The translations under genes were made by a program, and so were the position numbers. The notes under the pieces are model-generated. The model saw only the letters and a list, made by a program, of their open reading frames with translations. It did not search any database and was not told where the DNA came from. DNA of 64,000 bases, from NCBI GenBank assembly GCA_012517315.1, contig JAAYVE010000009.1, positions 124,001-188,000 of the forward strand. Reading direction: 5' to 3'. The DNA is from Deltaproteobacteria bacterium. GTDB taxonomy: Bacteria; Desulfobacterota; Syntrophobacteria; Syntrophobacterales; Syntrophobacteraceae. Shown here one piece after another: positions 39,164 to 46,367 of the stretch. Numbering within the stretch: position 1 is the stretch's first letter; the number at the start of each line of letters is the position of its first letter.

Positions 39164-40618
<1,455 letters not shown>

Positions 40619-40934
40619 GATGGTTGCAGCTCCTTTCTCTTGCTCGTAACGCAATTCGTGGACCCTTTGTTGGTCCTTCTTTCTCCATGGGGAAAAACAA
40701 GAACGGTGAGGGGACGACCAGCGATTTTATCTTCCAAGCCCGTCTTTGCCAACAGTCTAATATAGAAAAAATAAGCAATTCCAATGAAAAAGCAACACAG
40801 GAAACCATCGGAGAGCCGAGACAGAGGAGAAAGGAAGTGTTTCTGCTGCAATTTTGGCAAAGTGCGTTTTTGGCCGGGGGGCCCTCAGCCACTCGTTGAA
40901 AGACACTGGGGGGCGAGGATATCAGGATCTGGAT

Positions 40935-43178
40935 TCACCATCTGATGACCACAGGAGCAGGGGGGGTCCTCACAGGCTGCTCCCGCCCATAGCTTTCAAT
41001 GCTCAACCCGCCACGGGGGAGAATTGAGAAAAGGGAACGCGACTCCCCGTAATTGTTCAGATCGATGGAGAGGCGCATGACGGGCAATTCATGACGGTCC
41101 AGATGGCTCTCCAGTCTTCGAATGTGAATGCCGGGCGGCAGGGAAGCGAGACCGGTGAGGATTTCTGTGGGCTTTGCCCCAACGATGGCAATGTGGAATG
41201 TGAGGGTGTGTCTCCAGGGTTTTTCGTCGTTCCAGGTGACTCTGAGGAGTTGCTGGGGATGCAGGTCGTGACGCACCGTGATGTCCTGGCAATCCTCCTG
41301 GTGGAAGGTGATTCCCCGTTCGCTCAAGGTGGCCACCACCTTTTCCTGCCCTGGATACGGTCTGCAGCACCTGGCGAATTTGTGAGTCGCCTTGTCCAGT
41401 TCACTGACGTCGAGTACATTTTGCTCAAAAGTGGCGCGTTCGCGCACATCCCCCGCCGTGGGTTTTTGCATGTCTTCGGCTTTGGGTATGAGGTAGTAGA
41501 GCAGCAGTTGGGGAGAGAGCAGGTCCTGCCCGAGGCGCGTGAATAGATCGCTGAAGTCTTTGACATTCAACAGTTCTAGGATCAACTGGATATTCTCACC
41601 CTGGAGGACGGATTCGGAAAGGTGGTGTCTTCGGATCTCCTGGAGGAGGATCTGTTTTCCAACCTCTTGGGCATAGTGGACGCGCTTTTGTTGGAGTTGT
41701 TTGTTGATCGCGGTGCGGGCCTTAGGTGTTTTGCACAATTCCTCGAGATCCGGTTCCACATCCAAGGGTTCGGGAGAAGTGATGATCTCGACGGAGTCTC
41801 CATCCTGGAGCTGGCGTGTGGGGAGGGACCATTCATTGTTGACCAGGGCTCCCCCGCAGTATTCGCCCAGTTCGGAGTGGATCTTGTAAGCAAAGTCCAG
41901 GACAATGCTGCCTTTGGGGAGGAAGTAGATGTCTCCCCTTGGAGAGTATGCGAATATCTCCTCGGACTCGGAGAGGCGGATGAGCGCCTTTCGCTGAGGC
42001 GCCGCTCCACCGTATTCACCGATGCTTTTCAGCAGCTCACTGATCTCCTGCCAGTGTTCGTCACTCATGGGCTTCTGGGCATCCCACTCGCTCACGATAC
42101 CGTATGTGGCCCAGCGGTCCATCTCCGGCGTCCGGATCTTCACCAGGTAATTCTGCGCTTTCACGAGGATACGCACGTGCAGGCTTTGATATCCGTTATT
42201 CTTGGAGTTGGCGATGAAGTCCCTCAGGCTCCTGGGAACAGGGGCGAAGTGGGTGCTGATCAAGCCCAGCACAGTATAACAATCGATGAGATTCTCCGTC
42301 TCGAGGATGATGGCGAAATCAATGTGGTTTTCCGCATTGGTCACATCGATGGTCTTCTTGAGATGACTGTAATAGCTCCCAAGTCCCTTGGCCCGTGTGC
42401 GAACGACTGCGTTGAAATTGGCGTCTGCGAGAATACGCTCGATGCTCTGCTCGATTTCAGCCACTTGGGGTGACGAGCGAAACGCTCGGACATGTTGAAG
42501 GATTCGCTTGCTTTTACGCGGGTAGAGAAAAGAGAGGGCCAGGTGATAGAGTTCCCTTTTGAGGGGGTAAATGTTGAAGCGGGCTGCGATGGGCGCATAC
42601 ACCTCCACCGTTTCCTGGGCAATCCTTTGCCTTTTGGACTGAGGCAGGTAATGGAGGGTACGCAGGTTGTGGAGCCGATCGGCCAGTTTGATGATGAGGA
42701 CCCCCAATCGACGGCTCGCGCTCAGGAAGATCTTGCTGTGGGTCAGGTCTTTGAGAGCGGCTTTGTCCAAATGCCGGCGGGTCAGTTTGGTGCAACCGTC
42801 CACCAATTCCGCCACGACCGGTCCAAATCGGTCGGCGATGTCGTCAATTTGCACCGACGGGATGTCCTCCACAACATCGTGCAGGATCGCGGCAGATAGG
42901 AGAAAAGGGTCCCTGAATTCCAGCTCCCTTGCCAAGATTTCAGCCACTGCACAGGGATGACTGATATATGGCGCCCCCGATTTGCGCCTCTGGCCGGAAT
43001 GAAGGGAATGTGCGAAATCCAGGGCTTCGAAAAAAACCTGGTTCTCCCGCCGATCCTTTTGGAGGTACTTCTCCATTCGGACCCTGTAGTGGGGAAGGTC
43101 GAAAAAGACCACTTCACCCGGGTCGGTTCTTGGAGACTGAACGGTGGCTCTTTGCCCTGCAGTGATCTGTGATGCCAC
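40935..43178 (-). CDS. Rel/SpoT-family protein with intact hydrolase and degenerate synthetase motifs
   Basis: This 747-residue long RSH protein has HD hydrolase (about 50-200), synthetase (about 250-370), TGS (about 410-470) and C-terminal ACT domains. The hydrolase ligands are present: ISHP (H74), HDVVED (H100, D101, E104, D105) and KLADRLHN. In the synthetase domain the conserved D-x-x-A-x-R segment reads NHIDFAIILE, so the Asp and Arg are not in place. The E-x-Q-I-R-T motif reads YLVKIRT with Leu for the catalytic Glu. It may therefore be a ppGpp hydrolase only. The start is GTG with GAGGA upstream. Confidence 0.9.
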   Translation of the reverse strand: MASQITAGQRATVQSPRTDPGEVVFFDLPHYRVRMEKYLQKDRRENQVFFEALDFAHSLHSGQRRKSGAPYISHPCAVAEILARELEFRDPFLLSAAILHDVVEDIPSVQIDDIADRFGPVVAELVDGCTKLTRRHLDKAALKDLTHSKIFLSASRRLGVLIIKLADRLHNLRTLHYLPQSKRQRIAQETVEVYAPIAARFNIYPLKRELYHLALSFLYPRKSKRILQHVRAFRSSPQVAEIEQSIERILADANFNAVVRTRAKGLGSYYSHLKKTIDVTNAENHIDFAIILETENLIDCYTVLGLISTHFAPVPRSLRDFIANSKNNGYQSLHVRILVKAQNYLVKIRTPEMDRWATYGIVSEWDAQKPMSDEHWQEISELLKSIGEYGGAAPQRKALIRLSESEEIFAYSPRGDIYFLPKGSIVLDFAYKIHSELGEYCGGALVNNEWSLPTRQLQDGDSVEIITSPEPLDVEPDLEELCKTPKARTAINKQLQQKRVHYAQEVGKQILLQEIRRHHLSESVLQGENIQLILELLNVKDFSDLFTRLGQDLLSPQLLLYYLIPKAEDMQKPTAGDVRERATFEQNVLDVSELDKATHKFARCCRPYPGQEKVVATLSERGITFHQEDCQDITVRHDLHPQQLLRVTWNDEKPWRHTLTFHIAIVGAKPTEILTGLASLPPGIHIRRLESHLDRHELPVMRLSIDLNNYGESRSLFSILPRGGLSIESYGREQPVRTPPAPVVIRW

Positions 43179-43532: not shown

Positions 43533-43561
43533 TTGAAAAACGGCATGGAATAACTTATGAA
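43533..43561 (+). promoter_or_regulatory. Candidate sigma-70 promoter of the nosL-ABC operon
   Basis: TTGAAA (43533-43538) and TATGAA (43556-43561) are spaced 17 bases, leaving a leader of about 165 nt before the nosL-like gene. It lies within a 555-base divergent intergenic region (43179-43733) that also must hold the rel promoter; no other gene is seen there. Confidence 0.5.
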
Positions 43562-43733
43562 CCTCACCAACCCAAATGATGGTTGGATGGAGTCTCTTGG
43601 AGCCGGAACGTCCTCATGCCGCTGCGAGAGAGCTTTGGAGAGCCTACGGAGACGAAGGGAATCCGTGAAGAGGACATCTTGGGAAACCGGAACGGATTCG
43701 ATCCTTGATGCATCACTTTTGAGGAGAAAAACC

Positions 43734-44207
43734 ATGAAGACCGCTCTCGCCGCATCTGTTCTGATTCTCTTCATGTCTGCTTCCGTTTTTGCACAGGAGG
43801 GGAAGGCGCGCCATCCCACGTCCTCGGACAAGTGTCCTGTCTGCGGAATGTTTGTGGCGAAATACCCCGACTTTCTTGCGCAGATCATCTTCAAAGATGG
43901 TTCGGTCGTGTTTTTCGATGGGGTCAAGGACATGTTCAAGTACTATTTCAATATGGGTAAGTATGATCCTTCCAGGAGCCAGGCGGACGTCGCGGCAGTC
44001 TTTGTGACCGACTACTACAGCCTGCAACCCATAGACGGCACCATGGCCTATTACGTAAGGGGAAGTAATGTATACGGTCCCATGGGCAAAGAACTGATTC
44101 CCCTTGGATCGGAAGAAGAGGCCAGTGAGTTCATGTTCGATCATGTGGGGAAGGAAGTGGTCCTCTTCAAGGCGGTGACTCCCGAAATGATCAAGGACCT
44201 CGATTGA
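43734..44207 (+). CDS. NosL-like periplasmic metal-binding protein
   Basis: This 157-residue protein has a signal peptide cleaved near VFA-QE (residue 20). Directly after it is SSDKCPVCGMF (C34, C37, M39), the copper-binding motif style of NosL. The region FKDGSVVFFDGVKDMFKYY is typical of the NosL fold. NosL binds Cu(I) and helps mature nitrous oxide reductase, but no nosZ gene is near. There is no lipobox Cys at the cleavage site. GAGGAG precedes the ATG. It heads a five-gene operon and overlaps the next start (TGATG). Confidence 0.88.
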   Translation: MKTALAASVLILFMSASVFAQEGKARHPTSSDKCPVCGMFVAKYPDFLAQIIFKDGSVVFFDGVKDMFKYYFNMGKYDPSRSQADVAAVFVTDYYSLQPIDGTMAYYVRGSNVYGPMGKELIPLGSEEEASEFMFDHVGKEVVLFKAVTPEMIKDLD

Positions 44208-44515
44208 TGCCGTCAAGGATGTCCACCCGGTTTGTCATTTTCCTCGTGACCTGCGTGGCGCTTGTCTGGGGCATGCTGCTGCATGCGCACATGTCTCGCA
44301 GCAGCACCGGCCATGCGCTTCAGGAGCGCAGAGAGGTCATCAGGCGCTTCCAATTGTCCGATCTTTGCCTCTTCACGGATGCCCGTTATATCCGGCATCC
44401 CGTAGCGGCGGACTTGCACACGCCTTTCCAGGATTATCCCCTGTCGATGGAACACTTTCCCTCGGGATCTCTCATGCCCGTACCTCCCCATCTGCGACGC
44501 GGAGGGGGTGAATAG
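44207..44515 (+). CDS. Small single-span protein of the nosL-ABC operon
   Basis: This 102-residue protein has an N-terminal membrane anchor (FVIFLVTCVALVWGMLL) and a periplasmic or soluble tail rich in His and Pro (DARYIRHPVAADLHTPFQDYP). I recognise no family. The start overlaps the nosL stop (TGATG); ATG at 44219 is an alternative. It ends three bases before the permease gene. The tight coupling suggests it works with the transporter, perhaps as an adaptor. Confidence 0.7.
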   Translation: MPSRMSTRFVIFLVTCVALVWGMLLHAHMSRSSTGHALQERREVIRRFQLSDLCLFTDARYIRHPVAADLHTPFQDYPLSMEHFPSGSLMPVPPHLRRGGGE

Positions 44516-44518
44516 GTC

Positions 44519-45652
44519 ATGAGGGTTATCGAAAAACACAGGAACATTCTGGATTTCACCCTCTCCTCCCTTGCGAGAAGGAAGGGAAAGAATCTGTCTC
44601 TCGTTTTTGTCTACACTTTCGTCGTCTTCCTCATCGCCTCGGTCACGTTTTTCACTCACTCCCTCAAAACGGAAGCGGAAGTCATACTCCGGGATGCTCC
44701 GGAGATGATGGTACAGCGGCTGGTGGCCGGAAGACACGATCTCATTCCCATGAGTTACATGGACACCATTCGCCAGATCCGAGGGGTGCAATCGGTGACA
44801 TCCCGTCTGTGGGGATACTATTTCGACCCGACCAACGGCGCCAACTACACGCTGCTGGTCAAACCTGAGGAGCACAGCACCAGCGGGACAATCCTGGTGG
44901 GCCGTGGGGTTGCCCGCAGTGTCCGTTCCAAACAGACGGGGACCATTCCTTTCAAGACCTACGATGGGTCGTATCTTTTTCTCCGTATCAAGGAAGTGTT
45001 CACGGCGGAATCGGAGCTGGCCAACGCGGACCTCATCCTCATTTCGGAAGCTGATTTCAAGAGACTTTTTGCTTACCCGGACGGCTATGCAACGGATTTG
45101 GTGCTCCACGTGAGAAATGCCAACGAACTGCCGACCATCGCAACGAAAATCACTCATCTCCTGCCGGACACCCGGCCCATCCTGCGGGAGGAAATCGTGA
45201 GGACCTACGATGCAGTGTTCAGTTGGAGGGGAGGCCTCGTCATCGTGGTTCTCCTGGGTGTCGTTCTCGCATTTTTCATTCTCGCCTGGGAGAAAGCCAC
45301 CGGCTTGAGTGCGGAAGAAAGAAGGGAGATCGGGATCCTCAAAGGACTCGGTTGGGAGACGACGGATGTCCTATTCATGAAATTCTGGGAGGGTGCCGTC
45401 ATTTCCCTTTCCGCCTTTTTTCTCGGGATTCTCTGTGCATATGGACACGTCTTTTTCACTTCCTCCATGCTATTTGAACCGGCTTTGAAAGGGTGGTCCG
45501 TGATTTATCCCGATTTCAGACTCACTCCAGTCATCAGTGCGTACCAGATTTCCACCCTCTTTTTCCTCACGGTTCTGCCCTACACGGTGGCAACCATTGT
45601 GCCCGCGTGGCGCGCCGCGACGGTGGATCCGGACACGGTCATGCGGGCATGA
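44519..45652 (+). CDS. FtsX-like (MacB/LolE-type) ABC transporter permease
   Basis: This 377-residue permease has an N-terminal helix (about 24-44), a large periplasmic domain of about 190 residues and three C-terminal helices (about 237-258, 293-317, 345-370). The FtsX signature lies in the last part (EIGILKGLGWETTDVLFMKFWEG). Such permeases move lipoproteins, drive envelope processes or export small molecules without a substrate channel. It pairs with the ATPase encoded 40 bases downstream. The substrate is unknown. Confidence 0.92.
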   Translation: MRVIEKHRNILDFTLSSLARRKGKNLSLVFVYTFVVFLIASVTFFTHSLKTEAEVILRDAPEMMVQRLVAGRHDLIPMSYMDTIRQIRGVQSVTSRLWGYYFDPTNGANYTLLVKPEEHSTSGTILVGRGVARSVRSKQTGTIPFKTYDGSYLFLRIKEVFTAESELANADLILISEADFKRLFAYPDGYATDLVLHVRNANELPTIATKITHLLPDTRPILREEIVRTYDAVFSWRGGLVIVVLLGVVLAFFILAWEKATGLSAEERREIGILKGLGWETTDVLFMKFWEGAVISLSAFFLGILCAYGHVFFTSSMLFEPALKGWSVIYPDFRLTPVISAYQISTLFFLTVLPYTVATIVPAWRAATVDPDTVMRA

Positions 45653-45692
45653 GCTGTTTCAGAGAGAGTTCTGTATTGCGCCGGTTGGTGAG

Positions 45693-46367
45693 ATGATAGA
45701 GATCAAAGACGTGAGGAAAGTGTTCAATTGGGGGAGGCCCAACGAATTTGTGGCCATCGACGGTGTGAACCTTTGCCTCCATTCTCAAAGCGTGACGGTT
45801 CTCAAGGGGCCAAGCGGGTCGGGCAAGACCACCCTGTTGACCCTCATCGCCTGCATGGCAAGACCTACATCGGGGAGGATCACCTTGATGGACAGGGAAA
45901 TCACGAGCCTTCCCGAGCGCTTTCTCACGGAGATCCGGCGTCGGACCTTCGGTTTCATGTTTCAGCAGTTCAACCTCATCAAAGGGCTGACGGCTCTGGA
46001 AAACGTGATGCTTCCCGCATATCCGGCCGGAGAGAAGCATGCAGTTCTTGAAAAGCGAGCCGGTGAACTGCTCGGACTGTTCAACCTTTCGGAGAAATCG
46101 CGAGCCAAGGTGGAGTGGCTCTCAGGAGGAGAGGCGCAACGGGTGGCCATTGCCAGAGCCCTCATCAACAATCCGTCCATCATCATCGCGGACGAACCCA
46201 CCGCGCACCTGGACACGAAGCTTTCCCGGGAGTTCATGGAGATCCTGCTCAGTCTGGCACGGGACGGCAAGACCATCCTCATCGCAAGTCACGATCCCAT
46301 CGTTTATGAATCGGACATGGTTGAGAGAGTTGTGGAAATGAGGGACGGAAAGATCGTCGGGGAGTGA
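45693..46367 (+). CDS. LolD/MacB-type ABC transporter ATP-binding protein
   Basis: This 224-residue ATPase has Walker A (GPSGSGKTT, 39-47), Q-loop (FMFQQFNL), signature LSGGEAQR (143-150), Walker B (IIIADEP) and the switch His (IASHDP). It resembles LolD and MacB ATPases. The start at 45693 gives the standard N-terminus MIEIKDVRKVF; the frame extends upstream into the permease gene without similarity. It ends three bases before the next gene. Confidence 0.94.
   Translation: MIEIKDVRKVFNWGRPNEFVAIDGVNLCLHSQSVTVLKGPSGSGKTTLLTLIACMARPTSGRITLMDREITSLPERFLTEIRRRTFGFMFQQFNLIKGLTALENVMLPAYPAGEKHAVLEKRAGELLGLFNLSEKSRAKVEWLSGGEAQRVAIARALINNPSIIIADEPTAHLDTKLSREFMEILLSLARDGKTILIASHDPIVYESDMVERVVEMRDGKIVGE

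Follow-up and report, generated by a model that had tools for sequence, protein, structure and literature searches.

Does the long RelA/SpoT homologue (RSH) encoded in the window, the 64,000-nucleotide stretch of DNA analysed here, both make and degrade (p)ppGpp, or has it kept only one of these two activities? The gene in question is an rshD-type gene of 747 codons that occupies positions 40935..43178 on the minus strand; it begins with a GTG start codon and has a Shine-Dalgarno-like AAAAGGAG and a GAGG upstream. From the open reading frame, its translation, its Pfam matches, and a table of its motifs, we predict that the product is hydrolase-only [Hs]. The HD_4, RelA_SpoT, TGS, and AH/RIS domains all score above their Pfam cut-offs, and the features that follow all lie on the minus strand. 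The HD (ppGpp hydrolase) domain comprises residues 52-202 (42573..43025; HD_4, 112 bits), and a pseudo-synthetase domain that has lost its catalytic residues comprises residues 262-366 (42081..42395). The latter matches RelA_SpoT with only 57.9 bits, compared with 148.2 bits for the second RSH of the same genome. Next come a TGS domain at residues 408-467 (41778..41957; PF02824, 60.7 bits), whose His434 is invariant in 58 of 58 RshD proteins, and an AH/RIS helical region at residues 479-576 (41451..41744; PF19296, 26.7 bits). Conservation reveals a zinc-finger-like CC...H...C domain at approximately residues 591-650 (41229..41408), in which C604, C605, H626, and C630 are invariant. Pfam detects ACT_4 in the second RSH but not in the window protein, whose C-terminal ACT/RRM region, after the zinc finger, is diverged beyond Pfam recognition. 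With an HD domain, a synthetase fold, a TGS domain, and conserved zinc-finger residues, the protein belongs to the long RSH superfamily. Its length of 747 residues, together with the synthetase fold and TGS domain, rules out a small alarmone hydrolase, which consists of an HD domain alone in approximately 180-200 residues. Rfam and promoter scans of the rshD locus yielded nothing above chance.

To locate the hydrolase site, we mapped onto the window protein the residues that have been studied in A. baumannii SpoT (SpoT-Ab; PMC9974481). All 14 of the 14 mapped residues are kept: R65, K66, Y71, H74, H100, D101, E104, D105, K164, D167, R168, N171, K182, and R185 correspond to R45, K46, Y51, H54, H78, D79, E82, D83, K140, D143, R144, N147, K158, and R161 of A. 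baumannii SpoT, which bears out the original prediction that the HD-site residues are all present. In the A. baumannii enzyme, replacement of the Asn residue N147, of E82, or of D83 with alanine abolishes hydrolysis (PMC9974481). The HD octet R44-H53-H77-D78-E81-D82-D144-N148 is intact in every one of 58 sampled RshD proteins. At the Y51 column, two RshD members have Phe (L037 and L070) and one has Asp (L044), and the hydrolase residue set is incomplete in those three.

The synthetase site is altered at its catalytic positions, which are numbered here after T. thermophilus Rel (RelTt). The strings NHIDFAIILE and YLVKIRT had been read as standing in place of the synthetase motifs, and both readings are correct. 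In the alignment, the catalytic Asp D272 (RelSeq D264) is replaced by Asn284, whose codon lies at 42327..42329 on the minus strand, and R277 is replaced by Ala289. The ExQ motif column is occupied by Leu345-Val346-Lys347 (codons at 42138..42146, minus strand), such that E345 is replaced by Leu345 and Q347 by Lys347. An Asp and a Glu in the active positions would have spoken against a hydrolase-only protein, as the original prediction recognized; the residues found there are Asn284 and Leu345. Thus, the catalytic residues of the HD domain are present and those of the synthetase domain are absent, as expected of an [Hs] protein, and we reject the identity of a bifunctional Rel[HS] because N284, L345, and K347 leave the protein without the catalytic Asp and the ExQ motif. 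All 58 RshD orthologues share the changes from Glu to Leu and from Gln to Lys, which are thus fixed, and D272 is replaced in every one of them as well; this class-wide conservation excludes chance, sequencing error, or a pseudogene as the source of the substitutions. RshD pseudo-synthetase domains keep K326, Y330, and H334 in 58 of 58 cases, K264 in 56, and R262 in 53, and they have newly fixed R336, G329, L345, and K347. An acidic residue (D/E) occupies position 287 in 56 of the 58, whereas this column is Ala in all 99 Rel proteins; in the window protein it is Asp287, the acid nearest to the lost catalytic Asp and three residues away from it. Judged from its residues, the RshD pseudo-site looks repurposed rather than merely eroded.

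Measures of constraint and fold were obtained for the same domains. Mean pairwise identities of the HD and synthetase domains are 0.62 and 0.51 for RshD, 0.45 and 0.69 for Rel[hS], and 0.63 and 0.67 for Rel[HS], with opposite, mirror-image patterns of constraint in RshD and Rel[hS]. The pseudo-synthetase domain is under purifying selection relative to the orthologue in genome G001 (pN 0.098, pS 0.73); pN is quoted here in place of dN/dS because synonymous sites are near saturation. An AF2 model of residues 20-385 (pLDDT 78, pTM 0.76) keeps the HD and synthetase fold and superimposes on the N-terminal halves of RelSeq and RelBs with TM scores to target of 0.81-0.86. The full-length AF2 model is poor (pLDDT 60, pTM 0.39) and is too weak to judge the compact tau state described for SpoT-Ab.

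A hydrolase-only protein implies another synthetase elsewhere, as had been predicted, and a search of the genome found one. The genome (4.43 Mb, 61 contigs, 99% complete) holds exactly two RelA_SpoT loci and exactly two HD_4 loci, and no small alarmone synthetase (SAS) or hydrolase (SAH) was found elsewhere in it. The second RSH lies on contig C42 (L001:784-2952), where its start overlaps the end of an ispG-like gene that we identified by reading the sequence. This C42 protein is a Rel with an intact synthetase site (DVIAFR and EIQIRT, the DRYEQ residues) and a destroyed hydrolase site, in which HD has become HN (D78), ED has become LY (E81-D82), and N148 has become Glu. Since the genome has two RSH loci and their sites are mirror images of one another, the C42 Rel is its only predicted synthetase and the window protein its only predicted hydrolase.

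Given these residue states, it is very likely that the window protein is a dedicated (p)ppGpp hydrolase that carries a dead synthetase fold and is paired with a synthetase-only Rel. We predict that its HD domain binds Mn2+ and removes the 3'-pyrophosphate of (p)ppGpp. The retained synthetase fold would be catalytically dead, lacking as it does the Mg-binding Asp, the Glu base, and the Gln. The cell's one remaining RSH, the Rel with an intact synthetase and a destroyed HD domain, would be the partner of the window protein, and two one-way enzymes, in place of one that can be switched, would set the alarmone level. Regulation is probably why the pseudo-synthetase, TGS, and zinc-finger modules have been kept: they would lock the HD domain in its on or its off state. 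We infer these catalytic activities and this regulation, for both proteins, from the residue states, gene content, conservation, and distribution that we observed.

Several other explanations of the dead synthetase site were weighed against this one. One is that the pseudo-synthetase domain is a working ligand sensor, which would bind a guanine nucleotide, gate the HD domain, and so replace the HD/synthetase switch of a bifunctional Rel. The retention of the nucleotide-side residues Y330, K326, H334, K264, and R262 is consistent with such a role, as are the newly fixed residues and the acid at position 287; by contrast, the equivalents R249, R277, and Y329 are changed in A. baumannii SpoT, which does not bind GDP (PMC9974481). 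However, this conservation may be structural, and R277, which helps to coordinate the nucleotide in Rel, is lost, so we regard a working sensor as a tentative proposal with the odds somewhat against it. It is very unlikely that the site has residual or altered activity, with the shifted carboxylate of D287 or some other residue supporting a weak or different pyrophosphokinase reaction. Although the acid at 287 in a column that is Ala in Rel fits this idea, the fixation of ExQ as Leu and Lys leaves no general base, R277 is lost, and the window protein falls below the RelA/SpoT subfamily cut-off (437 versus 499 bits).

The HD domain itself might instead act on a different substrate, ppApp or NADPH for instance, as some small alarmone hydrolases do, with ppGpp being removed by other means. 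HD-only relatives of this kind are known, and structures of MESH1 and of a small alarmone hydrolase are among the fold matches of the window protein; nevertheless, every mapped catalytic and ppGpp-contacting residue of SpoT-Ab is kept. Moreover, no RSH hydrolase would then remain, given that the genome encodes no further HD_4 protein and that its other RSH is HD-dead. A change of substrate is therefore improbable, if marginally less so than a residual synthetase. Least probable of all, to the point of being hardly credible, is a decaying duplicate on its way to loss. The lost synthetase residues would fit decay, as would the poorly conserved ACT region, with 58% identity to the closest orthologue, but the gene is present in 38 of the 40 nearest genomes and in 37 of 394 genomes of the phylum as a coherent clade, its HD domain is strictly conserved, and it has no stops and a low pN. 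A dedicated hydrolase paired with a synthetase-only Rel thus remains the preferred reading.

The pair extends well beyond this genome. Of the 40 nearest genomes, 38 have two RelA_SpoT loci, of which one is strong and the other degenerate, and an RshD profile run over the 394 genomes of the phylum scored 37 at 673-1221 bits, with the next best locus at 496 bits. In a phylogenetic tree, RshD forms one clade with 100% SH-aLRT support, apart from Rel, and the Rel partners fall inside the Rel of the phylum. The close named relatives are Syntrophobacteraceae/Syntrophobacterales MAGs, and the clade spans a Syntrophobacteria-like class and Desulfobulbia-like families; judging by published taxa, the other RshD-bearing families presumably belong to Desulfobulbia. 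The window clade is probably the RshD of Atkinson 2011, judging by its taxa and its two-lineage pattern, which we compared by description. That study described RshD as second long RSHs in four delta-proteobacteria, wrote them as [HS] with a Rel[HS] partner, and left their origin open; it also recovered a 100% supported pair of Desulfotalea psychrophila and Syntrophobacter fumaroxidans RshDs (PMC3153485). Like the window clade, its RshD is a second, divergent long RSH of delta-proteobacteria with a Syntrophobacter/Desulfotalea-type distribution; where that study has an [HS] protein and a Rel[HS] partner (PMC3153485), however, the residues of the window family read [Hs] and those of its partner, in nearly all genomes, [hS]. 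Open-access searches of the literature beyond that study found no description of this RshD/Rel pair and no later RshD paper.

The state of the partner Rel largely goes with the presence of RshD. The HD domain of Rel is dead in 51 of the 52 RshD genomes in which both genes could be read (50 of 51 RshD genomes plus G050), with N148 lost and usually more. Where a genome of the phylum has a single RSH with a readable HD domain, that domain is intact in every case (50 of 50). These counts are phylogenetically non-independent, with few independent losses, and a sign test on independent pairs is without power. The lone exception, G399, has RshD together with an intact Rel HD domain. The 50 single-RSH genomes consist of 30 genomes, G038, and 19 of the 20 in a second set, the 20th Rel being truncated at its N terminus; the first Rel comparison set had been chosen by synthetase score, and the second was chosen regardless of score as a correction. 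To explain HD loss, several changes must be placed on the Rel tree, and for the group the label has to change no fewer than three times. One MAG, G016 (L149, L219), has a hydrolase-dead Rel and no RshD that we could find in it; the contig with the expected protease ends approximately 330 nt upstream of that protease, so RshD may have been lost there or may fall in an assembly gap.

Two further kinds of RSH with an intact HD domain and a dead synthetase were observed. A second type of long RSH (L151, L153, L180, L182, L184; f24, f47, f80, f93) has D272 replaced by Asn and ExQ replaced by S/R/N-x-Y/N, and the Rel HD domain is damaged in all five of the pairs read. A third, shorter type (L155, L174, L186, L188, L190; f81, f97, f105) has approximately 500-540 residues, ends after the TGS domain, and reads R-R-T/S-E/D-Y-R-E at its synthetase site; its partner Rel HD domain is intact in G331, G316, and G378 and damaged in G264 (E81A) and G226. 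As for an independent origin of RshD and these two types, a single synthetase-dead clade was not rejected (AU p 0.73; long branches). Extra divergent RelA_SpoT proteins of approximately 340-510 residues (L050 in G033; L076 and L039 in G011) also occur, in these genomes alongside the pair.

The hydrolase-only copy probably arose before Rel lost its hydrolase activity, because there are genomes that combine such a copy with a still-intact Rel. More speculatively, Desulfobacterota may have undergone a full split of Rel independent of that of RelA and SpoT. The synthetase-dead hydrolase would then have existed before Rel repeatedly lost its hydrolase activity, and the pseudo-synthetase would have turned into a regulatory site that binds nucleotide and has fixed residues of its own; taken as a whole, we consider this history possible but doubtful.

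Pfam identifies the gene downstream of rshD as a DegP/HtrA-type serine protease with two PDZ domains (39164..40654, minus strand). The protease adjoins rshD in 24 of the 34 Syntrophobacteria loci that have at least 700 nt of downstream sequence, and in none of the Desulfobulbia-like rshD loci. A link of rshD and the protease to envelope stress is conceivable. On the other side lies a divergent plus-strand cluster (43557-46367) that, by Pfam, encodes a NosL-like protein, an FtsX-like permease, and an ABC ATPase.

The division of RSH function between proteins has so far been described mainly in gamma- and beta-proteobacteria, and the only recorded case in which two long RSHs divide synthesis and hydrolysis completely between them is that of Moraxellaceae (PMC3153485). 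Relatives of sulfate reducers, too, appear to have divided a two-way enzyme into two proteins that each work in one direction. If this is true, the split would be the rule in entire families of these anaerobes, the [HS] label published for RshD and the automatic annotation of these genes as bifunctional would be corrected, and RshD would offer a pseudoenzyme in which new residues have become fixed at the dead site. Intermediates that are still redundant, namely G399 and, for the short type, G331, G316, and G378, would allow the order of duplication and then loss to be tested.

Among known systems, the window protein resembles the SpoT[Hs] of Moraxellaceae (A. baumannii, 7qpr; PMC9974481), a long RSH with an active HD domain, a dead synthetase, a TGS domain, a zinc finger, and a synthetase-only RelA partner, the arrangement that is predicted here. 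A. baumannii SpoT is the fourth-best PDB sequence match of the window protein and the first Foldseek match of its full-length, low-confidence model. It differs in lineage and in the residues of its dead site, and the window protein keeps the nucleotide-stacking Tyr and the TGS His of Rel/RelA, which are absent from SpoT-Ab. The original prediction had called the protein a hydrolase-only SpoT; by its residues it is hydrolase-only, but by descent it is not SpoT, given that it scores 318.7 bits against the 947-bit cut-off of the SpoT equivalog model NF008303 and that E. coli SpoT groups with Rel, outside the RshD clade. The C42 Rel, for its part, resembles the RelA[hS] of beta- and gamma-proteobacteria in having an intact synthetase and a degenerate HD domain. 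In the trees it nests with the Desulfobacterota Rel proteins, however, and has lost different HD residues, so its HD loss appears, from its sequence, to be independent of that of RelA[hS]. Finally, the window protein shares its domain order and the fold of its N-terminal half (TM approximately 0.8) with bifunctional Rel[HS], from which it and the C42 Rel both differ in that each has only one intact activity site.
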